From the NCBI RefSeq assembly GCF_003601985.1, contig NZ_QZXA01000001.1:186001-250000 (forward strand): a stretch of 64,000 nucleotides of DNA, given 5' to 3'. This document shows positions 49,738-60,870 of the stretch, piece by piece. The position numbers were made by a program, and so were the translations under genes. The notes under the pieces were generated by a model, which was not told the origin of the DNA, made no database searches, and saw only the letters and a list, made by a program, of their open reading frames with translations. This DNA is from Mesorhizobium jarvisii (GTDB lineage: Bacteria; Pseudomonadota; Alphaproteobacteria; Rhizobiales; Rhizobiaceae). Numbering within the stretch: position 1 is the stretch's first letter; every line of letters starts with the position of its first letter.

Positions 49738-50010
49738 TCAGGTTCCTTTATCCCACTGGTTGATCTTTTTGATCTGGGCCGTGCAGACCCGAAGGCCGGC
49801 TTCGTTGACATCGCCCCTGTCAAGCAGATCGCCGGTGACCTGTGGCCCGCCAGGCTTGGACCAGATCGGCGGCGGCTGGCGCTTCAGCGATGCAGGGATA
49901 TGCCGCTCGACGGTGACGTACTTAATGACCACCTGCGGCTTTGGGGTTGCCATACAGCCCGCGAATAGCATCGGGGATAGGCAAACGGAGATAAGCATCA
50001 ACGTCCGCAT
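49738..50010 (-). CDS. Rz1-like outer spanin lipoprotein
   Basis: A short signal with lipobox FAGC (residue 19) would anchor the protein in the outer membrane; a proline-rich stretch (RQPPPIWSKPGGPQ) follows. The start lies inside the Rz-like gene in another frame, overlapping its last 89 bases. Overlapping Rz/Rz1 frames are typical of spanins, which fuse inner and outer membranes in the last step of lysis. Confidence 0.8.
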   Translation of the reverse strand: MRTLMLISVCLSPMLFAGCMATPKPQVVIKYVTVERHIPASLKRQPPPIWSKPGGPQVTGDLLDRGDVNEAGLRVCTAQIKKINQWDKGT

Positions 50011-50311
50011 TTTTTGCCCTCAGATCGGCCAAAGCCTTGGCCATGTTCAGCGTTGAATTGTTCGCCGCTTCGACTTCATCGGCGAGATCGCCCGCCAGCT
50101 TGTCGACACGAACGTTTTCGGCCGCTTGCGCCGTCATGGTCTTTTCGTTGTCGGCGTTGACATCCAGCGCTGTCTTCAGGCTGCGTTCGGCTGCCTGCTG
50201 TGCCGCGACTGCATCGCGCGCCTCAACCTTGTAGTGATAGGCGACGAGGCCGGCGCCCATGGCGATGATCAGGCCAAGGATGGCGGCATACCCGGTGATG
50301 TTCACGCCCAC
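49922..50311 (-). CDS. Rz-like inner spanin
   Basis: One N-terminal membrane helix (YAAILGLIIAMGAGLVAYHY) is followed by a long coiled coil (residues 28-105) and a short C-terminal tail YLRLPIPDAIRGLYG. This is the usual inner spanin layout. GTG start at 50311 (or 50305). It overlaps the Rz1-like gene. Confidence 0.8.
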   Translation of the reverse strand: MGVNITGYAAILGLIIAMGAGLVAYHYKVEARDAVAAQQAAERSLKTALDVNADNEKTMTAQAAENVRVDKLAGDLADEVEAANNSTLNMAKALADLRAKNADVDAYLRLPIPDAIRGLYGNPKAAGGH

Positions 50312-50816: not shown

Positions 50817-51308
50817 TCAGCCAACCCATTCGCCCGTCAGGGCTTGGTCGTAGTGCTGCGCGATGACGGCAATCTCCTGCGCGCGATCGGTGCCGTTGAT
50901 GATGCGGCGCGCGTCGACAAAGTCGGAATGCTGCAGGTCGATATAGTCTGCGAGCTTGCGGCCGGTGAACCAGCCCTCGCGCATGCCGGTCACGGCGATC
51001 TTGGCTGCGTTGGCGGGATCGAGCGCAAGCGTCGGATCCTGGTCGCAGGCGATGCCGAGCTCGCGTGCGGCCCGCTGGTAATTGGCTTGCCAGGTCAGTT
51101 GGACGAATCCGCGGCCGTACCACGGATAATAGCGGAGATTGTTCCGGCGCCAGTTTTCCGAAAGCCAGTAGGCCTCGACGACGGGCCGCATGGTATGCGC
51201 GGTCTCCCAGAACGACGTCGCTAGCACATAGGCGCACTGATTGCGAAGCAGACCCTGCGCCTTGCTCTCGTCGATAAGCATGCGCGTGCAACCGAGGGAC
51301 AGGTCCAT
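50817..51308 (-). CDS. GH19-like endolysin
   Basis: The 163-residue protein has the chitinase-19/lysozyme-like fold: SFWETAHTMRPVVEAYW with the proposed catalytic Glu, and YYPWYGRGFVQLTWQANYQ. Phages use such domains to cut peptidoglycan. No signal peptide is seen, so release depends on the holin. AAAGGAA lies 5 bases before the ATG at 51308; the longer frame upstream is not supported. Confidence 0.85.
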   Translation of the reverse strand: MDLSLGCTRMLIDESKAQGLLRNQCAYVLATSFWETAHTMRPVVEAYWLSENWRRNNLRYYPWYGRGFVQLTWQANYQRAARELGIACDQDPTLALDPANAAKIAVTGMREGWFTGRKLADYIDLQHSDFVDARRIINGTDRAQEIAVIAQHYDQALTGEWVG

Positions 51309-51610
51309 GGCAGTTCCTTTCCGCCCTCGCGGGCAGGTTGAATAACGGGGTATATCGATGGGAATGGCGACCCAGCCGGGTGGCGCTGCGCTGCGGGCCA
51401 ACTCACCCTATGGTTAAGCTGCCAAAAATCTCTTTTGAATCACTAGCTTACGGGCCGGAGTATGACAGGCCAAAGTAGATGGTAGTTAAGCACTTGTTAA
51501 AATAACGTTGACACCTCTCGGGCCCAAGAACAGGATTATCGACGGGACCGGGGGATGAGCTTCACAACAAGCACCTCTGTCCGGGTAAATGGGTAAACAG
51601 GGGAATTGGC
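51309..51610. promoter_or_regulatory. Divergent control region between endolysin and pilin genes
   Basis: The 302 bases hold no gene. The middle is AT-rich. A candidate plus-strand -35 hexamer TTGACA lies at 51508-51513, with weak -10-like words (CAGGAT at 51531, GATTAT at 51534). The minus-strand promoter for the lysis genes must also lie here. Nothing else is distinct. Confidence 0.4.
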
Positions 51611-51775
51611 ATGAAAAATCTTCTCAAGCAGTTCCGCGACGACGAAAACGGCGCCGCGATGGTCGAATACACGATCCTTCTGGGCATCATCACGATTGCA
51701 GTCATCGCCAGCGTCATCACCGTCGGCGCCTGGGTCAGCGGTCGCTGGGCGCTCCTCGCCACGACGCTCCCGTAA
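51611..51775 (+). CDS. Flp-type (type IVb) pilin, copy 1
   Basis: The 54-residue product is a short prepilin: a charged leader MKNLLKQFRDDENG, then AAMVEYTILLGIITIAVIAS. The predicted cut is after Gly14, which puts Glu at mature position 5 and Tyr at 6, as in Flp pilins of tad systems. No prepilin peptidase, TadA ATPase or secretin gene is near, so assembly would need the host machinery. Located in the prophage on the strand opposite to the late genes. Confidence 0.88.
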   Translation: MKNLLKQFRDDENGAAMVEYTILLGIITIAVIASVITVGAWVSGRWALLATTLP

Positions 51776-51800
51776 GCCGAGGCTTTTCGGGAGAACTCAA

Positions 51801-51974
51801 ATGAAAAATCTCATGACGATCACACGGCGCTTCAGTGCCGATGATGACGGCGCAGCGATGGTGGAGTACACCATTTTGCTCGGCATCATCACCATCGCGG
51901 TGATAGCATCGATCATTACAGTCGGCGCTTGGGTTACCGGCCAGTGGGGCGGTCTTGTGGCCGTATTGCCGTGA
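51801..51974 (+). CDS. Flp-type (type IVb) pilin, copy 2
   Basis: The 57-residue product has the same layout (leader MKNLMTITRRFSADDDG). In the 33-residue core from the cut-site Gly to the final Trp it matches copy 1 at 30 positions, yet 19 of those 30 shared residues use different codons, which shows long separate evolution under strong selection on the protein. GGGAG lies 7 bases before the ATG; 25 bases separate the two genes. Confidence 0.88.
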   Translation: MKNLMTITRRFSADDDGAAMVEYTILLGIITIAVIASIITVGAWVTGQWGGLVAVLP

Positions 51975-52018
51975 ACGAACAAAGCGTCGGGCCGTCGATT
52001 GAACCCGATCCTGACGCA

Positions 52019-52058
52019 GTGCCGGCGGTTTCGTCGCCGCCGGCACATCCCTTTTTTT
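52019..52058 (+). terminator. Possible terminator after the pilin genes
   Basis: GTGCCGGCGG (52019-52028) and its exact complement (52037-52046) flank an 8-base loop. A run of seven Ts follows after five bases (52052-52058). The offset T-run makes it less than ideal. If active it separates the pilins from the following membrane gene. Confidence 0.6.
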
Positions 52059-52072
52059 GGGAAAGGCTGCAC

Positions 52073-52291
52073 ATGGACTTCGCCCGAGAGACATTTGATT
52101 GGTCCGTGAACAAGGTCAGAACCGACCCCTTTACGTTCGTCCTGTGCATCTATGCGATAGGGTTGCTGCCAGCCGCACTTACTTCTCTCCTTTTGACCTT
52201 TGTCAGAAATGCCGATGCGCCATGGCTGTTCGCGACGGTGCAGGCCTTGACCGATGCCGCCATTTGGCCGCTGAAGGTTGCCGGTTTTTAG
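52073..52291 (+). CDS. Small membrane protein of the pilin cassette
   Basis: With ATG 52073 (GGGAAAGG upstream) the product has 72 residues: a short charged start, then a hydrophobic segment FVLCIYAIGLLPAALTSLLL and a second weaker one near the end. A longer frame from GTG 51971, overlapping the pilin stop, would add 34 Pro-rich residues but runs through the hairpin. No family recognised. Its stop overlaps the stop of the convergent fibre gene. Confidence 0.6.
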   Translation: MDFARETFDWSVNKVRTDPFTFVLCIYAIGLLPAALTSLLLTFVRNADAPWLFATVQALTDAAIWPLKVAGF

Positions 52292-53061
52292 GCTCCGATC
52301 CAGCTCTTGAAATTGTTGATGATGGTCGCGCGGTCGCCAGAGGATGGCACAGTCGAGAACGCCGCGAATTCGAACAGCTTGCCATCCATAAACGCACCAG
52401 AGCCAGCATAGCCGAGCCGCATCTGTCCGGTCATGACTTGCGTGTTGCCGGTGGCAGTCGCAGCGCTTTCGACGCCGTTGACGCCAATATAAAGGTTTCC
52501 GCCCTCATGACGCCATGTCAGCACATAGGCGGTCGATGCAGCAACTGAAGCCTGCGCGTAGTCTTCAGTTCCATCGTAGTTGTAGGCATAGACCAGAGGT
52601 GACCCGCCGTTCGACCGCAGCGTCATGCCCGCATAGAGAGCGGCATCCATGAAGACGCCGGAATTGCTATATTTTGTAGCGCTATCCGTCGGGAACGTGT
52701 CAATGAGGACACTGGCGATGACAAATCCGGCATTGTTGGCGATGATGGTCGACAGAGCGAACGCCCCATCGAGAGCATCATTGACGCCATCATAATCCGC
52801 GCACTGTCGACTATTCGGACCAGCAGTGCTGACCGTCGGTCTATTGGCGCTCGTACCCTGTGCGAAGTTTCTGGAAGCGCCGGATTGGTCATTGAGCAGC
52901 GAGACCGCGCCGGATGAATTCGTGAATCTCGCCCCGCCGGCATAAGTGGACAGCAGATCGCGCGAGAGCGAACATGCCAATGTCGGCGAGAGCCCATCCA
53001 AAGGGTAGACGATGGGACTGACCGAAGCCTGACCGAACAATTGCCCCGTTGAGAGCAGCAT
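52288..53061 (-). CDS. Phage tail-fibre-like protein, LamG-type fold
   Basis: The 257-residue product is rich in beta strands. AYVLTWRHEGGNLYIGVNGV with a following GYAGSGAFMDGKLFEFAAF is typical of concanavalin/LamG-like domains that bind sugars, and the last lines close the sandwich. The start overlaps the stop of the upstream gene (TGATG). Probably a receptor-binding or host-range protein. Confidence 0.65.
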   Translation of the reverse strand: MLLSTGQLFGQASVSPIVYPLDGLSPTLACSLSRDLLSTYAGGARFTNSSGAVSLLNDQSGASRNFAQGTSANRPTVSTAGPNSRQCADYDGVNDALDGAFALSTIIANNAGFVIASVLIDTFPTDSATKYSNSGVFMDAALYAGMTLRSNGGSPLVYAYNYDGTEDYAQASVAASTAYVLTWRHEGGNLYIGVNGVESAATATGNTQVMTGQMRLGYAGSGAFMDGKLFEFAAFSTVPSSGDRATIINNFKSWIGA

Positions 53062-54026
53062 CAGATTGCCGTCCCTTTGAGCGTGGCGGCGATGTTGGCG
53101 ACAGATGCCTCGGCCGGAGAATTTGACGGTGCAAAGAACTCGATGCGATGACCGGCCGAAACAGTCTTTGCTGTGCCGCTCGATGTCGTGAAGGTGAATG
53201 CCCCGCCAGTCGATATCGAGATGGTGCCTATCGATGAGCCATTGTCCTGCACATCGATCGCGAATGTTGCTGCAGGATTGGTGCCGACATGGCCGGACGA
53301 TCCGGAGAAATTCGCGGCCAGCGCGATGTCGCGAACGGCGATGAGCTTGCCCATCAACTGACCAGCGGTCGGCGTTCCTGCAAAGCTCAGCGGCACGTCG
53401 TATGGCAGATCTGACCATGCCGGTGCAGCAGAGCCAAGCGTCTTCAGGAATTGCCCACTGGTGCCACCAACCAGTTGTTTCCAGCCTGCCGGTGAGTTGC
53501 TGTCGTAATACAGGATATTGCCCGCAGCCGCGCCGGCGAAGGCGTCAACGGTTATGACCGTACCCGATCCCGAGATGGTGACATCGCCATAGTCGCCATC
53601 GGCGAGCGAGCCGCCGCTTGTGGCCACAGAGGCACCATAGAGGCCCGGGGACGAGCCGTTGGTGTAGCCGATGAAGAATGCCCCAGGCGCCACTGCCTTG
53701 GTCAGGGCGGTCTCTGGCGAGGCGCCGTCCGTGCTTTTCAGCGTGACGGTGTAGGTGGCATCTGAGTTGTGGAAGATGAACGGCCGCTTGACCGCCGGGA
53801 GGATCAGCGTGCGCGCCGCGGCGAGCGCGGCGGCCGGCTTGTAGATCATGGCCGAACGGAACTGAGCGGCGGTCAGTGTGACGTTGCCGGCCGAGAAGTC
53901 GACGCCCGTACCGCCATAGATATCTGACAGCGCATTTGCCAATTGGGTCAGGCCGTCATTCGACGACTGCCATTGCCCGTCGGCCTGACTGTCTGCAATG
54001 AGCGTCAGGTTGAGATCATTCGCCAT
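53061..54026 (-). CDS. Phage tail fibre/tip protein
   Basis: The 321-residue product has a long beta-rich, Gly/Ser/Thr-rich sequence without enzyme motifs, e.g. GDVTISGSGTVITV and GGTSGQFLKTLG, as in fibre shafts. GGAGCC precedes the ATG. Located between the hub and the LamG-like gene, it is likely the shaft or collar part of the fibre. Confidence 0.6.
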   Translation of the reverse strand: MANDLNLTLIADSQADGQWQSSNDGLTQLANALSDIYGGTGVDFSAGNVTLTAAQFRSAMIYKPAAALAAARTLILPAVKRPFIFHNSDATYTVTLKSTDGASPETALTKAVAPGAFFIGYTNGSSPGLYGASVATSGGSLADGDYGDVTISGSGTVITVDAFAGAAAGNILYYDSNSPAGWKQLVGGTSGQFLKTLGSAAPAWSDLPYDVPLSFAGTPTAGQLMGKLIAVRDIALAANFSGSSGHVGTNPAATFAIDVQDNGSSIGTISISTGGAFTFTTSSGTAKTVSAGHRIEFFAPSNSPAEASVANIAATLKGTAI

Positions 54027-54034
54027 GGAGGCTC

Positions 54035-57000
54035 CTAAAGGGTGACGGTCGTTTCACGCGTCGGGCAGATGACGCCGGTTCCAGACACCTGCCGGACATC
54101 GAAGGTGAGGTTGCTCCCCGTGGTCAGCGGAGAGCCGAAATCCGTCGTCTGAAGATTTCCTGGATAGTCGTAAAGCGTGGCGTTGTTCACGGTGACGGTG
54201 CGCAGCACCGTGCCGGCGGGACCGCTCTTGATGCGCACGATGAATTGTTCCAACGTCTCGCCGAGCGGGGCGGTATATGCGTCCTCGCCATCATCAGCCC
54301 AAAAGGAGCCGATGCGGGAACGACGCACCCAAGACAGCCGCACATCGGAAGGGCTTCCAATAGATGCCTTGAGGTTGCAAGGCTTCGGAATCTTCTCAGC
54401 CTCGCCCGTGACGGTTCGGTTGACGGACGGCGTATTGTTGATGTTGCCGCCGAGACCGACCGGCTTGAAATCGAAGGCATCATCAAGCGAGGCGATCGTG
54501 TAGTCGATGCGCTGGACGTTCTCCTCCGAGAGCCAGACAACATAGTCACCGATTGCATGGAGAGCGGTGTATTCCTCCGAGGATTTGCGGCCGCGGCGAA
54601 GCCCTTCGAAGGTATAGGTGCCGTTAGCGTTTACGGTGATGGACATCACCTGGCAGACTTCCCACCTGCCCGGCTGGCCGATGGCGAAGAAGTTCGCGCC
54701 ATTCACCATCTCGAGATAGGTCGCTGAGGTCAGCGTCGTCGGGTCGCCCGAGATGAAGGCAACATTCAGCGTGCGCGTGAATTCTGTGGCGTAAGGGATA
54801 TCCCAATTCGGAAGAATTCCCAGAGCGACTCCGACAATGCCATTGGTGGTCTGGCCTGCCACCGCCTGATAGGTGCCTGACGAGTCCTTGCGGTAGAGCG
54901 TAGCGCCATCCCAATAGGGCTGCCCGGCCGAGGCCAACACATGATACTGCACCAGGCCGGAGCCCGCGAGATCGTGGCTATCGGACAGCAGCGGAATATC
55001 GAGATGGTAATAGCGGCTTGCCGGGGTGCCGATGGGCTCGGGTTCAATTGGTCTACCGACCGCGCCAGAGATAGACACCGAAACGCTTGACAGGAATTCC
55101 GTAGCGAGCACGTCGAGCAAGTAGTCGGGCCGCACGGTCGTTTCCGTGATGCGCGCGGTGATCAGGCGGTTGGCGAAGATGAACCGGGCGATATCCTCCG
55201 GCTCGACGTCCCCATATTTGGCGCGCAGCGTCATGGTGAACTCATGACGCTCGATCGCCATCCGGTTCACCTTCTGCGTGGCCAGTGTCTTGATCGTATC
55301 GGCATCGGCGATGATCGGAATATCGGCCTTCACCGACCAGTCAGCCGGCGCTACCGGCAGAGGAAGGGTCGGAATTTCCCCGAATTGCGCGCGCGTCTGG
55401 TATATCTGGTCAGGGTCGCGATAATTGATGCCGTAGCGGGAAACGAACTCCTCCGGGTTAAGGCGCCTGGCCTTGATCGCCTGTCCGCCACTGTCGGCAA
55501 TGTCGCCAGAAGAGGAGAGCGTCAGATCAACGGCAAACGAGGCGTCAGTCAATGCCCGCTTGAAGATGATGACGCCGGAGCGTTCAAAGATGGCGATGGA
55601 ATAGGGCTCGCAGGTCGCTCGCGCAATGTCTCGCACGCCTGCCGTCACATCGATCACAGCCCCCTGCACCTGATCATCAACATTGATGGTTTCGATCTGC
55701 GCTGGTTCGAATCCCCCTGCCGCCATCAATGCTTCCAAGAAATCCGACAGGTTGCGCAGAGACCCACTGCCTGCCACGTCAAACTGCCGGCGCTGCGGCA
55801 CCGTGTTGTCTGTCGTTATGGCGATGCTGGAATCGGCGTCGTAGACATACCGCCCGCTCGACACATCGGCATTGGAGACCGTTCTGGTGGTCCCATCAAT
55901 AAGACTGGTGAAATAGTAGGAAACGCCGGACTGGAAGAAGAGCGTGTCATTCAGATTGCTTGCATCAGCCGTTCCCAGGCGGCGCGATTGTGCGACTTCG
56001 ATCTGGTAAGGGACGGAAACAGTCCAGACGGTGGCGCCTGTTGCGCCATCAATGCGGATGGCCTGAGCGTTGTCGTCCCAAACGATCACGTCATCATTGT
56101 AGAAGACCGCATAACGAAGATTATGTGCAAAGGTCGCGAAAGAGGTGATGCTTAGAACCTGTCCGAGCGCGTTGACGACGGCCTTGTAAAGCACCGTCCC
56201 GACGCAGACCCAGACGTCGGCGTTATCCGCGCGGATGTCGCCAATGGAAATGGATTCCGGCACCCCTCGTCCGTCCCATGACGCGCCAGAAAGGCTGACC
56301 CGAACGATTGAGCTTGCATTAAACGTGAAGAGAGAGACATAGCCGAGGTGATAACTTCCGACGATCAGGACGCCGGCACTGCCGATCTGAAAGGCACCTG
56401 CAGCATTGAGCAACTGACCGGTGCCGCCGATATCCAGACCTTCGGAGATCGCAACTCCCGTGACGGGGTTGAACAGGATCGGATAGGTTCCGCCGGAAAT
56501 ACCCGGCACGAAGCCAAAACCGATGAGCCTGTCGATATTGGGGAAATAGCGGAAATAATCCTCGACAATAGTCGAATAGGCACGGCCGAGGCCACTGACC
56601 GGGATGGCATAAATCTCTCGCAGAAACCCCGTCGAGAAGCGGCGGATCATCCCTGAATTGTTCGAAAACCCATACCAGGTGTTGCTCTCCCAATCTCCAG
56701 CGGCAACGGTGTCTACCGGATCCGATGAGAATCCGACGAAGTTCTGGACCGATACCGCGTCGCCGAGAGCCTGAACGAACTCCGCCTCGAACACTGGTGG
56801 GGAGCCAAACCCGAACACGTCATAGTCTTGGACGACGATATCGAGATAGCCGCGATGGGCTGAGACGTTGGCCTCACCCTCTTCGCTCACCATGGCGGGG
56901 TCACGGCCTTGCGTGCTGCGGCCATCGTAAAAACGGAAATTAAGGCCGTCGGCTCGATATCCGGTGGTCCCGTCCCAGATCAGCTTACCATTGGCGTAGA

Positions 57001-57298
57001 GTTTGCGTATCGACCATTGCGAATCCGGCACCAGAGGACGTGCAAAGCGAAGCCTGGCCGTCAACCCGGTCGTTGTCGTGGTGACGGTATCCCAGAACTC
57101 CTGATGCGTTGAAGTGATGGTCAGGATCGGCGCGCACCAGATATAGGCGGCCGGCAATCTAGCTAGGCCCCAAATAACCGGGATCGTCTGGCCATAGGCC
57201 GAGGTCGGCAAGGTGGCCTGGAAAGGCGGGACATCCGCAACCGTCGGCGTGGCCGGCGGCGGTCCCCCGATGTAGAGGATCGGACGCTTGATGCCCAT
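54035..57298 (-). CDS. Phage tail hub/tip protein
   Basis: At 1087 residues this is the largest gene in the window. The N-terminal part (VPPFQATLPTSAYGQTIPVI, and RFYDGRSTQGRDPAMV) matches central tail-hub proteins of siphophages, analogous to lambda J or the GTA gp15 protein. The C-terminal quarter has fibronectin-like beta sequence. It organises the baseplate and probably holds the fibres. Confidence 0.75.
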   Translation of the reverse strand: MGIKRPILYIGGPPPATPTVADVPPFQATLPTSAYGQTIPVIWGLARLPAAYIWCAPILTITSTHQEFWDTVTTTTTGLTARLRFARPLVPDSQWSIRKLYANGKLIWDGTTGYRADGLNFRFYDGRSTQGRDPAMVSEEGEANVSAHRGYLDIVVQDYDVFGFGSPPVFEAEFVQALGDAVSVQNFVGFSSDPVDTVAAGDWESNTWYGFSNNSGMIRRFSTGFLREIYAIPVSGLGRAYSTIVEDYFRYFPNIDRLIGFGFVPGISGGTYPILFNPVTGVAISEGLDIGGTGQLLNAAGAFQIGSAGVLIVGSYHLGYVSLFTFNASSIVRVSLSGASWDGRGVPESISIGDIRADNADVWVCVGTVLYKAVVNALGQVLSITSFATFAHNLRYAVFYNDDVIVWDDNAQAIRIDGATGATVWTVSVPYQIEVAQSRRLGTADASNLNDTLFFQSGVSYYFTSLIDGTTRTVSNADVSSGRYVYDADSSIAITTDNTVPQRRQFDVAGSGSLRNLSDFLEALMAAGGFEPAQIETINVDDQVQGAVIDVTAGVRDIARATCEPYSIAIFERSGVIIFKRALTDASFAVDLTLSSSGDIADSGGQAIKARRLNPEEFVSRYGINYRDPDQIYQTRAQFGEIPTLPLPVAPADWSVKADIPIIADADTIKTLATQKVNRMAIERHEFTMTLRAKYGDVEPEDIARFIFANRLITARITETTVRPDYLLDVLATEFLSSVSVSISGAVGRPIEPEPIGTPASRYYHLDIPLLSDSHDLAGSGLVQYHVLASAGQPYWDGATLYRKDSSGTYQAVAGQTTNGIVGVALGILPNWDIPYATEFTRTLNVAFISGDPTTLTSATYLEMVNGANFFAIGQPGRWEVCQVMSITVNANGTYTFEGLRRGRKSSEEYTALHAIGDYVVWLSEENVQRIDYTIASLDDAFDFKPVGLGGNINNTPSVNRTVTGEAEKIPKPCNLKASIGSPSDVRLSWVRRSRIGSFWADDGEDAYTAPLGETLEQFIVRIKSGPAGTVLRTVTVNNATLYDYPGNLQTTDFGSPLTTGSNLTFDVRQVSGTGVICPTRETTVTL

Positions 57299-57299
57299 T

Positions 57300-58358
57300 T
57301 TACTTGCCAGCCCCGATCAGGAACGCCAAGCCGGGCAGCAGGTTTTCACCACGGAAGTTTATCGAGTTGGCAAAGCGATCCCTGCACATGGTGAACGTCT
57401 TGTCGCAGCCGGGGACGATTTCGAACGTGTCATTAACGGCGACCGGCCAGCGGGCGGCACCCCAAAGCTGGATGCGTGACGTGGATTGCGTCCAGGCGCG
57501 CACCTGGTTGTACAGCCCGATATTCTGGCCCGAGGTCCATTTGATGACGCCATTGGTGAACCAGCCATCGACAGCACGGCTTTCGGTCAGGGTCGCGGTG
57601 AAGTCGCCATCATCGGTATGCGTCGCCACAACGCCGGAACGCACCCATGCCTCGGCCGCCGTGAAGACCGCCGTTCCGTCGGTCGTGGTCGCGGCTACGG
57701 TGTAATTGTAAGATGGAGCCGAGCTCGCTGTCGTTCCCGCCGTCGTGCATCGGAACATGCGGTTGTGATAGTTGCCAGCATCCGAGACACGTACATAATC
57801 GCCGACGGCATAGGCAGTGCTGCGCGCCACATTATTGGGATAGAGCGGCAGGGTGCAGAAGCCGGGGCGCGGGTCGCCGAGATCGGAACGGCAGGCGACC
57901 GACAGTTCCTCGACAGTGATCTCCTTGGCGCGCTGCAGGATGCCGCGCACCTCGAACACGGCAATCTTGCCTCTATCGTCATAGTTGATTTCGGAGACCG
58001 TGTAGGGGCCAAGCTGCATGCCGCCGTCTGACGGGCTGTCGAAGCTCACTACGAACAGGGTGATTTCCATCCCCTCGAACGTGCCGGCATAGACATCCTC
58101 GGCGTCATAGGCATCGGAGATCGCAGCAGGTGCCGTCACCTCGCCATCAGGGACCGAGCCATCACCGGTGAACTTCAGGGTCGAGCCCTTGAAGCTCTTG
58201 TCAGCCGTCCAGGTATGCGAGTTGAACGATTGATCCTGCCCTGTGCCTGAGACGCGAATGGTGGTTCCGTCGAGAAACACGAATTGACCAAGCCAGCCGA
58301 GCGTGTGCGGCGTGGCCGACATTGCAGCCTTGAGGCCGGCAGAGGTGAGCCTGCTCAA
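57300..58358 (-). CDS. DUF2163 / phage BR0599-family tail protein
   Basis: The 352-residue product has an N-terminal DUF2163 domain (LGQFVFLDGTTIRVSG) and the C-terminal cysteine block GCDKTFTMCRDRFANSINFRGE of the BR0599 family, with an earlier Cys pair CRSDLGDPRPGFC. In gene transfer agents the counterpart is the hub protein gp13, whose cysteines bind a metal or cluster. Start: TTG at 58358 overlapping the previous stop; a later ATG (58322) is an alternative. Confidence 0.85.
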   Translation of the reverse strand: MSRLTSAGLKAAMSATPHTLGWLGQFVFLDGTTIRVSGTGQDQSFNSHTWTADKSFKGSTLKFTGDGSVPDGEVTAPAAISDAYDAEDVYAGTFEGMEITLFVVSFDSPSDGGMQLGPYTVSEINYDDRGKIAVFEVRGILQRAKEITVEELSVACRSDLGDPRPGFCTLPLYPNNVARSTAYAVGDYVRVSDAGNYHNRMFRCTTAGTTASSAPSYNYTVAATTTDGTAVFTAAEAWVRSGVVATHTDDGDFTATLTESRAVDGWFTNGVIKWTSGQNIGLYNQVRAWTQSTSRIQLWGAARWPVAVNDTFEIVPGCDKTFTMCRDRFANSINFRGENLLPGLAFLIGAGK

Positions 58359-58960
58359 CGGAAGCGCTCGACGAGAACGAAGGGCCCGGCCGAGGCGACT
58401 GGACGGGTATTATTCAGGGTGACCGGGAACGTGATTGGATTGTAATCCAGTTCGAAGCGGACGCGCGCAAACCAGTTGCATGACCCGACGGCTATAGCTT
58501 GTCCAGCCGTCGGGATATGTCCGCCCGTAAAGGTGACCACGCCATCGGCTTCGGTATAATTGGCCGTGATCACTCCTGCGACCTTCATGACAAGGCTATT
58601 TACGATGGTGATCGGACGACGGTATGGCCGATCGACGTCTGGGTAGGTTTTATAGATTTGGAATGACGCCGTGGTGCCGTCGCCAGTGCCGATGTTCTCG
58701 TCGGTCAGCGTGCTGTATTGCGGATCGCGCAGTGGGAATAAATTTGCCGCGCCGCGACGACCTAGCAAAAACGCCTCAAACGCCTGGATTTCGGCGATCG
58801 GCCTATTGATCAGGCTGGCCTCATACTTCCAAAGTGCTATGGGCCAGTCTTGGTTGCGATCCTCGAAACCACCGAGCAACGGAAGGGATGTTGTTTGAAA
58901 GACCGGCCCGCAGCGAAGCCCGAGCGCGAACTTGTCATTGATGGCGACGGTATCGACCAT
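58355..58960 (-). CDS. DUF2460 distal tail protein
   Basis: The 201-residue product has the DUF2460 pattern (GLRCGPVFQTTSLPLLGGFEDRNQDW and RRGAANLFPLRDP). It corresponds to GTA gp12, which forms the ring at the distal end of the tail tube. Its start overlaps the tape-measure stop (TAATG). Confidence 0.87.
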   Translation of the reverse strand: MVDTVAINDKFALGLRCGPVFQTTSLPLLGGFEDRNQDWPIALWKYEASLINRPIAEIQAFEAFLLGRRGAANLFPLRDPQYSTLTDENIGTGDGTTASFQIYKTYPDVDRPYRRPITIVNSLVMKVAGVITANYTEADGVVTFTGGHIPTAGQAIAVGSCNWFARVRFELDYNPITFPVTLNNTRPVASAGPFVLVERFR

Positions 58961-60870
58961 TATGCCCTCGCCGCCGCAGTCGTCATTGTGTAGTACATGT
59001 CGAGCGCCTGTTGCTTTGCGGTCTCATTGCTCACGCCCGGCGCCGCGGTATAGTTGAAGGTGATCGGATTGCCCGGCTGCTGGACATTGACCGAGGTGCC
59101 ATAGTTCCCGTCGCTCGATGTCGTCGGGAATTTGACGCTCGGCCGCGTGGTTTTCCCGACACCCCAGCTTGAGATGTAGCTGCCATATTGGGAATCGAAG
59201 GAGTCCCCGAACATGGTTTTGCCGGTGCCCGTAGCGCCGCTGTCATTGTTGTGGACCAGGGCAGCCAGGGCATAGGAGTTGAGCTGCTGCATCGAAGCGC
59301 CAACGACCTGAGAAAGCCGACTGATTGCGATCGATTGCTGCTGTGAATAGCCGCCGATGTCGCGGCTCAAACTGCTGAGGTAATCCTTGGTGTTGGAGTC
59401 GAGTTTCGAAACGTTGTCGGCGGTCTGCTGGGTATAGGAAGCCGTACTCTTCGAAGAATCGAAAATCTTAGCGCCGTATTGATCGGTGTGCTCGGTTAGG
59501 AAATTGGCTGGGTTGCTCTGATACCCCCCGTACTTTCGTACCCTTACGCCGTTTACGACGGTATCGTCTGACCTAGATGACCGATCGATCAAGCCAAGGT
59601 CAGAAGACCCGGGGCCGTACTGCGTGACGCTTGGCGGACCGGATGTCCCACTCCGGTAGCCGGTGACTGTCGGCAGCGACTTGGGTGCGGCAGCGCCAAT
59701 ATTGCCCATCGACTTGAGCATTTCGTCGAAGGCACCAGACGCGTTGTTGGCTGCGGCTTGAGCGGCAATGCTGGTACGGCGCAACTCCTCCTGCAGCGCC
59801 TTCAAGTCTTCCTGCGCGCGGTCGGTCTGGACGGTAACATCGAGGCCGACCGCAGCATCCTTTCGCAGATTGTCGAGCGTCTGCTGCACCTGCTCGATAT
59901 CGGCTTGGATGGCGGCTGTGCTGCGATGCGACGATTCCGCCAGCCCGTCGAGGCCGTTCTTGATGCTGCCCTCGCCAAAAATCTTGGCGAAGTTAGCGAG
60001 GCTCGGATTGTTGATGAAGTTGTCGATGACGGCGGCGGTGTTGTTCAATTCCTTGGAGAAATCGGCAAAGCCCTGGATCGAGCCTACCAGGATAGGCGCC
60101 AGATTGATCAGCGCCTGTCCCAACTGGACGCTGATGACCTTGGAGAGCAGATCGAGTTTGTCGTCGAGTTCGCCGGCGCGCTGCAGCAATTCGTCGGGAA
60201 TGATGATGCCCATCTCGCGGGCCGACTGCTTGAACTTTTCGATCGAGGCGCGACCCTGCTCAAGGATGCGGGCCATCTCGATGCCGCCCTTGCCGAAGAT
60301 GACCGTCGACAGCGCCGCCCTCTGTGTCGCGTCGCTGGTATTCGCCATCGCGTCGGATACAAGCTTGAGCCGTTCCTCCTGATCCTTGGTGTTCAGGATG
60401 GCCTGCAGCAGTTGCGGGTTGAGGTTTTTCAGGCCGGCATAGAGTGCGCCCTGTCCCCTTTCCGCTAGACCGGAGTTCTTGGCGAAAATATCGAGCGACG
60501 AGTTGAAGCTGTCGTACTCGATGTTTGCCTGTTTCGCGGCAAAGGCCAGCGCCTGGAACGTGTCGGTCTTCAGCCCCGTCGTCTTGGCATCGCTGGCTAT
60601 CTTGTCGTATTCGGAGATGGTCTCCTTCAGCTTGTCGAATGCGCCGCTGAGCGATGCAATGGCGGTCAGGCCTGCACCAGCCGCCAATCCCGCGCCGAAA
60701 TTCTTGAGCGTGGCGCCGACCGAGTTGACGCCCTTCTCAACCGTGCCGACGGCCTTGGCCATGCGCGCCGACTGCTGCTCGACCGTAGTCGCTGACGACT
60801 TGAAGCCATCCGCAAACTTGGCAGCATTTGTGGAGAGATCGATCGAAATCGATCCGACGGTTGCGACCAC
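58960..60870 (-). CDS. Tail tape measure protein
   Basis: At 636 residues the protein is helix-rich with a central hydrophobic part (GAGLAAGAGLTAIASLSG, near residue 60) and repeated Gln/Asn/Ala-rich helices. Its place between the tail chaperones and the distal tail genes fits a tape measure. At about 0.15 nm per residue the tail would be about 95 nm. GTA tape measures are far shorter. GTG start with GAGG upstream. Confidence 0.8.
   Translation of the reverse strand: MVATVGSISIDLSTNAAKFADGFKSSATTVEQQSARMAKAVGTVEKGVNSVGATLKNFGAGLAAGAGLTAIASLSGAFDKLKETISEYDKIASDAKTTGLKTDTFQALAFAAKQANIEYDSFNSSLDIFAKNSGLAERGQGALYAGLKNLNPQLLQAILNTKDQEERLKLVSDAMANTSDATQRAALSTVIFGKGGIEMARILEQGRASIEKFKQSAREMGIIIPDELLQRAGELDDKLDLLSKVISVQLGQALINLAPILVGSIQGFADFSKELNNTAAVIDNFINNPSLANFAKIFGEGSIKNGLDGLAESSHRSTAAIQADIEQVQQTLDNLRKDAAVGLDVTVQTDRAQEDLKALQEELRRTSIAAQAAANNASGAFDEMLKSMGNIGAAAPKSLPTVTGYRSGTSGPPSVTQYGPGSSDLGLIDRSSRSDDTVVNGVRVRKYGGYQSNPANFLTEHTDQYGAKIFDSSKSTASYTQQTADNVSKLDSNTKDYLSSLSRDIGGYSQQQSIAISRLSQVVGASMQQLNSYALAALVHNNDSGATGTGKTMFGDSFDSQYGSYISSWGVGKTTRPSVKFPTTSSDGNYGTSVNVQQPGNPITFNYTAAPGVSNETAKQQALDMYYTMTTAAARA

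Follow-up and report, generated by a model that had tools for sequence, protein, structure and literature searches.

Phage morons, or lysogenic-conversion genes, include for example O-antigen acetylases, and a moron that alters a surface structure is a known kind of gene. In Caulobacter, pilA is activated by CtrA, whose consensus is TTAA-N7-TTAA (PMC11264516, in part), and the signal peptide of the Tad pilus is described as 14 residues long in the available sections of PMC11067988. CtrA sites of alphaproteobacterial pilus-tropic and related phages, including one of Mesorhizobium, are reported to bind CtrA and to alter reporter transcription (PMC9437464, in part). These CtrA-responsive phage genes (of phiCbK, vB_BsubS-Delta and Mesorhizobium phage Cp1R7A-A1) resemble the locus described here in having CtrA sites upstream of phage genes. 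According to the sections of PMC9437464 that are available, binding and the effect on expression were determined there by gel shift and reporters; the tested genes have no assignable function, whereas the gene here is a prophage pilin. The main text of PMC9437464 contains neither 'pilin' nor 'pilA'. A Flp pilin has been annotated in another rhizobial prophage group, the phiLM21-like prophages of Sinorhizobium meliloti (PMC12429752). In the available part of that source it occupies one table line (COG3847), which is the sole mention of 'pilin', and comes with no promoter, host matching or function. Among the matches listed in our search of the open-licence literature, some of them available in part, there was no phage-carried Flp pilin beyond this table line, nor any pilin that both matches the host allele and has an apparent CtrA promoter.

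We found Flp-type prepilin genes in a prophage of Mesorhizobium jarvisii, within the window (the whole 64-kb stretch of DNA analysed; Table 1). Compared with phage morons, the cassette is alike in its own promoter, its strand opposite to the late genes and its optional presence at the junction where it lies, but it differs in encoding a copy of a host surface subunit that matches the host allele type in Mesorhizobium. Compared with the major pilins of Tad/Flp (type IVb/IVc) pili, represented by the tandem pair on contig C3 of the same genome, it is alike in its G|AAMVEY prepilin layout, tandem arrangement, CtrA-box promoter and mature core. It is unlike them in lying in a prophage that has no tad machinery, in its leader peptide and 5' leader, and in synonymous sites that are nearly saturated.

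Table 1. The pilin cassette and the genes on both sides of it (positions in the window)
Feature	Position	Strand	Description
CtrA box TTAAGCACTTGTTAA (TTAA-N7-TTAA), by consensus	51486-51500		sole such site in the 64-kb window
Putative promoter core	51508-51539	+	TTGACA at 51508-51513, GGAT-type -10 at about 51533-51539; aligned with phage and host promoters
5' leader region	51544-51610	+	GGGACCGGGGGATGAGC, GCACCTCTGTCC and a Shine-Dalgarno-like AGGGG at 51599-51603
Flp-type prepilin 1	51611-51775	+	54 aa, 14-aa leader, cleavage site G14|AAMVEY
Flp-type prepilin 2	51801-51974	+	57 aa, 17-aa leader
Small membrane protein, orphan	51971-52291	+	106 aa, GTG start overlaps the stop of prepilin 2
Endolysin (GH19-like), lysis side of the junction	50817-51401	-	matches a PHROG endolysin family
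Distal fibre-like gene, tail side of the junction	52288-53418	-	ORF overlaps the next fibre gene, 53061-54026
Tail genes	54035-60870	-	Rcc01698-like, BR0599, DUF2460, tape measure

The coordinates in Table 1 bear out the sequence-only reading that preceded this work, which had placed two tandem plus-strand prepilin genes between endolysin and fibre genes, followed by a gene for a small membrane protein. Its comparison of the two 33-residue cores came out the same on recomputation, with 30 identical positions, 19 of which use different codons. It had also called the genes prophage cargo, and this holds: to the right of the fibre and tail genes are portal, major head protein/protease, terminase and tyrosine integrase genes, mostly outside the window. 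These genes identify the prophage and its extent, which is roughly 38-39 kb (about 46.2 to 84.9 kb when numbered from the start of the window), with the left limit set by gene content. No att sites were found as exact repeats of at least 14 bases in the stretches tried. The third gene of the cassette encodes a single clear hydrophobic stretch, and neither a search of 100 other genomes nor the scan of viral contigs turned up a relative; we therefore dropped it as a component of the general system. Two further observations concern the same prophage. By eye, overlapping minus-strand genes at 49738-50311 resemble an Rz/Rz1 spanin pair. A run of glycosyltransferase-/methyltransferase-like genes, also recognized by eye, occupies 67537-73717 (L007 3537-9717), between the portal and head-protein genes and beyond the window, an unusual place for cargo within a prophage.

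The machinery for a pilus is found elsewhere in the genome. When ten tad proteins were compared with the window, no TadA, secretin or peptidase was matched, as had been claimed; there was one weak TPR-type match (TadD, 29%, at 29.1-29.4 kb). The suggestion that the products would depend on a host tad system is in keeping with the complete tad locus on contig C3, where Pfam identifies a leader peptidase, a TPR protein, two T2SSF proteins, a T2SSE ATPase, RcpC/CpaB, a secretin, Tad and TadE/G proteins and a CpaE-like AAA protein. The nearest relatives of the prophage pilins in their own genome are the tandem pilins of this locus (C3:36803-37282; 74-79% identity). This genome has three further Flp genes, all distant. 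Among 50 homologous loci fetched from the same genus (L041-L090), 45 are in tad loci and five (L056, L060, L065, L077 and L090) lie outside. The residues GAAMVEY (G14-Y20), followed by a hydrophobic helix, are invariant in 11 aligned phage pilins, including both pilins here. With 26.3 and 17.8 bits, the two proteins stay below the curated gathering cut-off of Pfam Flp_Fap (PF04964; 32.2). The host tad pilins on C3 (27.0 and 24.1 bits) are likewise under it, so this failure does not exclude membership of the family.

Small hydrophobic proteins adjoining an endolysin might instead be holins, or other lysis proteins that are merely pilin-like. We rejected this identity as very improbable. The pilin genes lie on the strand opposite to the late genes, they have a host-type tad promoter and the conserved GAAMVEY cleavage site, and their products are 74-79% identical to host tad pilins. 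Moreover, holin-like genes, recognized by eye, adjoin endolysins elsewhere, for example in L112 (9443-9697) and in L253.

The promoter region resembles that of host tad pilins. The TTAA-N7-TTAA sequence lies upstream of the promoter and starts 125 bases upstream of pilin 1; among the 45 host tad pilins whose upstream region is complete, 43 have a box between -130 and -135. The phage promoters and those of 12 host loci can be aligned over the box, TTGAC, the -10 region and a GGGGGATG element, with element names assigned by eye. Protein similarity identified 20 cassettes, and every one of them carries TTAA-N7-YTAA no more than 150 bp from its first pilin. L221 and L112 are one prophage, as are L150 and L098 (100%), and this census counts each of the two once; L219, L220, L222 and L223 were not counted as promoter evidence because they had been found with a pattern containing the box. 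In 395 kb of loci there are 46 matches to TTAA-N7-YTAA (both strands, palindromic sites twice) compared with 2.0 in Markov shuffles. CtrA is predicted to bind this box, and the cassette promoter is putatively CtrA-regulated. The phage 5' leader is strongly conserved across 13 aligned phage cassettes. Its conserved elements GGGACCGGGGGATGAGC, GCACCTCTGTCC and AACAGGGG (51544-51603 and homologues) could pair in two ways around the Shine-Dalgarno sequence. A search for an RNA hairpin over the Shine-Dalgarno sequence, in 7 sequences folded singly, gave z-scores of -0.98 to 2.06, nothing beyond chance.

The search for prophage-borne Flp pilins elsewhere, proposed with the sequence-only reading, found the pair or a single copy in other prophages and in phage contigs. 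Scans of IMG/VR viral contigs yielded 5, 19 and 19 loci, all in 19 contigs, 16 of them distinct (L108, L110 and L113 duplicate L107, L109 and L111 at 99.9-100%, and L117-L132 are already-included contigs again; none of these was counted, and L091 was left unclassified). Neither of the two pilins was matched in 50,697 phage records. The phage-type pattern occurs in at least 11 of 146 Mesorhizobium genomes, at no fewer than 13 places, one of which (G102:C1:1909245) is inside a host tad locus. In the family, at least 5 of 394 genomes (109 genera) have it, in 3 genera and at 7 or more places, three of them inside tad loci (G274, G292:C13 and G471). These counts are lower bounds, because cassettes with other spacing are missed.

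The carrier phages are diverse in their genes. Where there is any match, the tail genes are 25 to 85% identical to those of the M. jarvisii prophage; L056, L060, L090 and L100 have no tail-gene match to it, and L060 has a short endolysin match only. The 5'-side lysis genes, picked by eye, were tested in 12 of 24 loci, and 12 of 12 match lysis families, with the GH19 matches of the M. jarvisii prophage (21.5 bits against a Pfam cut-off of 25.5) and L104 just under the cut-off. The M. jarvisii prophage and L105 have 3'-side genes with matches to tail or virion families, and tail genes follow farther on in L098, L099 and L101. The fibre-position genes of L060, L101, L223, L219 and L222, which have no match in PHROGs, were named fibre-like from position and by eye.

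The arrangement has traits of a moron. The cassette has its own promoter, and of the 23 loci with a 3' gene of at least 100 aa, 20 have the nearest such gene on the opposite strand (24 loci, mechanical scoring; the exceptions are L114, L220 and L056). Against a moron orientation, just 14 of the 24 loci have an opposite-strand gene as their nearest 5' neighbour, often with small, maybe spurious ORFs between. The cassette is optional at this site, judging from one case: a related prophage in G053 (L253; BR0599 85%, Rcc01698-like 60%) has a fibre-like gene, a holin-like gene (by eye) and the endolysin consecutively at the junction, with no pilin and no CtrA box.

In Mesorhizobium, the mature pilin of the cassette matches the tad pilin type of its own host. 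We compared the 30-residue mature core in the 14 genomes in which a tad pilin occurs together with a pilin of phage type or an orphan one; in four of these (G043, G034, G102 and M. huakuii) no nameable phage gene stands beside the pilin. The mean identity to the own host is.95 (best pair per genome, n = 14), and the medians to the other 81 host genomes are.60-.73. None of 100000 label permutations reached the observed mean, the maximum being.876. No other host is better in 11 of the 14 genomes; 3 hosts are better than the own host for G039, 3 for G175 and 11 for Pseudaminobacter CB3. All 12 Mesorhizobium genomes with an intact gene have an own-host core identity of.93-1.00, against medians of.63-.73 to other hosts, and the M. 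huakuii copy, which is broken after the core, has.87. Addition of G292 (best.77) gives a mean of.938 over 15 genomes, again with 0 of 100000 permutations reaching it. Restricting the set to the 11 genomes with phage-type genes adjoining the pilin also gives 0 of 100000, and the 9 Mesorhizobium genomes among them give 2 of 100000, both equal to the observed value. A set of 8 genomes gives 7 of 200000, which is about the chance rate of drawing the true labelling. In the variable C-terminal tail, the own host comes first in 7 of 12 Mesorhizobium genomes, and in the remainder 1-4 of 84 others are better. The three prophage pilins in two genomes of genus g148 are mismatched (Pseudaminobacter CB3,.73; G292,.77 and.57).

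The match could be a by-product of phages tracking host lineages, of recent copying from the host or of gene conversion within the genome. We consider this unlikely, while lineage does contribute. The same pilin type is shared by 1 of 1 host pairs with a mean tad identity of at least.97, 7 of 9 at.95-.97, 21 of 55 at.92-.95 and 39 of 494 at.88-.92 (81 hosts, full loci, 3 duplicates removed). Since close hosts (tad identity of.95 or more) often share a type (8 of 10 pairs), the match partly follows lineage. Tandem host pilins match one another too, and for 5 of the 12 prophages the nearest other host is an equal (3) or better (2) match. The own host is better in the remaining 7, with means of.975 for the own and.900 for the nearest other host. 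Over all pairs of the 81 hosts, however, tad identity predicts pilin identity weakly (Spearman.25). In all 5 genomes whose nearest other host by tad proteins is of a different pilin type (G034, G000, G102, G103 and G121), the prophage goes with its own host, so lineage alone is insufficient, and lineage tracking as the source of the match is weakened. In the pairs G000/G111 and G103/G121, full loci show TadA at.987, CpaC at.95 and TadC at.83-.85; by the latter two values, these are related but not near-identical hosts.

Recent capture is disfavoured by synonymous divergence. One prophage copy is close to its host in DNA (G029, pS.11). The median pS is.51 to the own host,.54 to other hosts of the same type and.38 between same-type hosts. 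Because own-host pS is about as high as that to other same-type hosts and exceeds that between same-type hosts, most copies are old and recent copying is unlikely. The sequence-only reading had argued that selection kept the protein for a long time, and the pooled comparison of prophage and host copies agrees with this: pS is.548 and pN.039 over 19 comparisons, from which M. huakuii (frame altered after the core) was excluded. These values indicate purifying selection with synonymous sites nearly saturated, and they likewise speak against a match brought about by gene conversion or by recent capture.

The leader peptide, in contrast to the mature region, is distinctive. The host leader is almost invariant, and predicted phage leaders differ from it. 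Of 30 phage-type first genes, 14 have a predicted 14-aa leader (13 of 28 once two doubly counted prophages are taken out), as do 0 of 85 hosts. As both leader peptide and 5' leader differ consistently, amount or processing may be adjusted by the phage. The mature surface gives a different picture. Phage-host and tandem host pilins have similar identities in the core (.96 vs.98) and in the tail (.71 vs.72, P.92), with 18 comparisons of the first kind and 26 of the second. Each phage pilin was scored against whichever host pilin matched it better, a choice that favours similarity. Since the phage-host difference about equals that between tandem host pilins, an altered surface is unlikely to be the purpose, and the proposal that the phage pilins 'dress' host pili is left unsupported.

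We propose that these loci are CtrA-timed lysogenic-conversion (moron) cassettes whose subunits join the host Tad pilus, with a probability of roughly 55%. Such a cassette would consist of a CtrA-box promoter and one or two Flp pilin genes that border the late genes of a temperate tailed phage, typically where lysis and tail-fibre genes meet. Host CtrA would turn it on in the lysogen together with the host tad pilins, host prepilin peptidase would remove the leader, and the mature phage subunits would enter the host Tad pilus. Four features suggest that the subunits are made together with host pilins and for the same pilus: a promoter like that of the host, an intact cleavage site, a mature region of the same type and purifying selection. 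Pilus amount, timing or composition would then be partly under prophage control. Co-assembly would need phage subunits of the host's pilin type, and the failure of the type match in genus g148 (Pseudaminobacter CB3 and G292) counts against the proposal. So does the difference between predicted phage leaders and the host leader, although 14 residues is also the length of the Caulobacter Tad signal peptide. Overall, the data suggest that such prophages take part in building or managing host Tad pili. As to what is gained, a better-piliated lysogen seems about as likely as control over the entry of pilus-dependent phages.

One possible purpose, a special case of this proposal, is superinfection exclusion, in which pilins from the prophage obstruct, deplete or alter the Tad pilus and thereby block pilus-dependent phages. 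It remains tentative. Phage late genes border the cassette, those 3' of it being mostly fibre or tail genes, and several reports, each available in part, fit: phiCbK and phiCB13 require Tad pili (PMC7911016), the pilin group sets sensitivity to PP7 (PMC5820433), and focused CtrA sites mark pilus- or flagellum-tropic phages of Alphaproteobacteria (PMC9437464). The contacts of phiCb5 on the Caulobacter Tad pilus are given as Val29, Val30, Val32, Thr33, Lys48 and Thr51 in the available part of PMC11067988. Taking pilin 1 numbering as equivalent, positions 33, 48 and 51 are among the most variable in host pilins, 29 is moderately variable, and 30 and 32 hardly vary; the variable positions thus include some that align with contacts (mean entropy 1.45 vs.96). 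However, the mature surface is altered no more than between host tandem paralogues, and a co-expressed sensitive pilin made PP7-resistant strains sensitive, which is the opposite effect (PMC5820433, in part).

We regard it as equally tentative that extra same-type subunits sustain or raise piliation and aid root attachment and nodulation, so that the phage gains through lysogen fitness. The phage pilins resemble another paralogue of the host set and have a host-like promoter, and Flp pili are reported to influence nodule formation and competitiveness in S. meliloti (PMC10934763, in part). This purpose explains neither the location beside fibre and tail genes in diverse phages nor the phage-specific leader. 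A broader idea, to which we also give less than even odds, is that temperate phages of Mesorhizobium carry their own receptor subunit beside their fibre genes, a host-type Tad pilin that is long kept and CtrA-timed, and that the prophage thereby manages the pilus used for entry. Phage and host would then share a set of pilin alleles, and phage distribution would be tied to pilin type. If the moron proposal is correct, a phage-borne pilin cassette matched to the host allele is run by the master cell-cycle regulator of the host, and this may be why tad pilins within one bacterial genus are of many types. Effects of rhizobial Flp pili on nodulation suggest that prophages may influence root colonisation, and natural prophage/host pairs are at hand for testing how phages use or control Tad pili.

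The neighbours of the pilins vary among the loci. Unrelated small genes follow the pilins in several cassettes, as in the M. jarvisii prophage. In L220 (10561-12298), a PAP2-superfamily protein and a second protein with no Pfam match are encoded after the pilin pair on the same strand. A subtilase-family (Peptidase_S8) protein, possibly a tail protease, takes the fibre position beside the cassette in L099 (9762-10955). Orphan or prophage pilins have O-acetyltransferase (Acyl_transf_3) and fatty-acid-hydroxylase-like genes as neighbours in L090 (6310-7467 and 8622-9470) and L077 (1113-2159), assigned by profile, and in L056 (8408-9301), assigned by eye; a similar-looking gene (by eye) lies beside the host tad locus at C3 30812-31639. 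Finally, G292 carries two prophages (L231 and L234), each having a CtrA-box pilin of a different type, and their fibre-side genes are similar by eye (L114 and L116).
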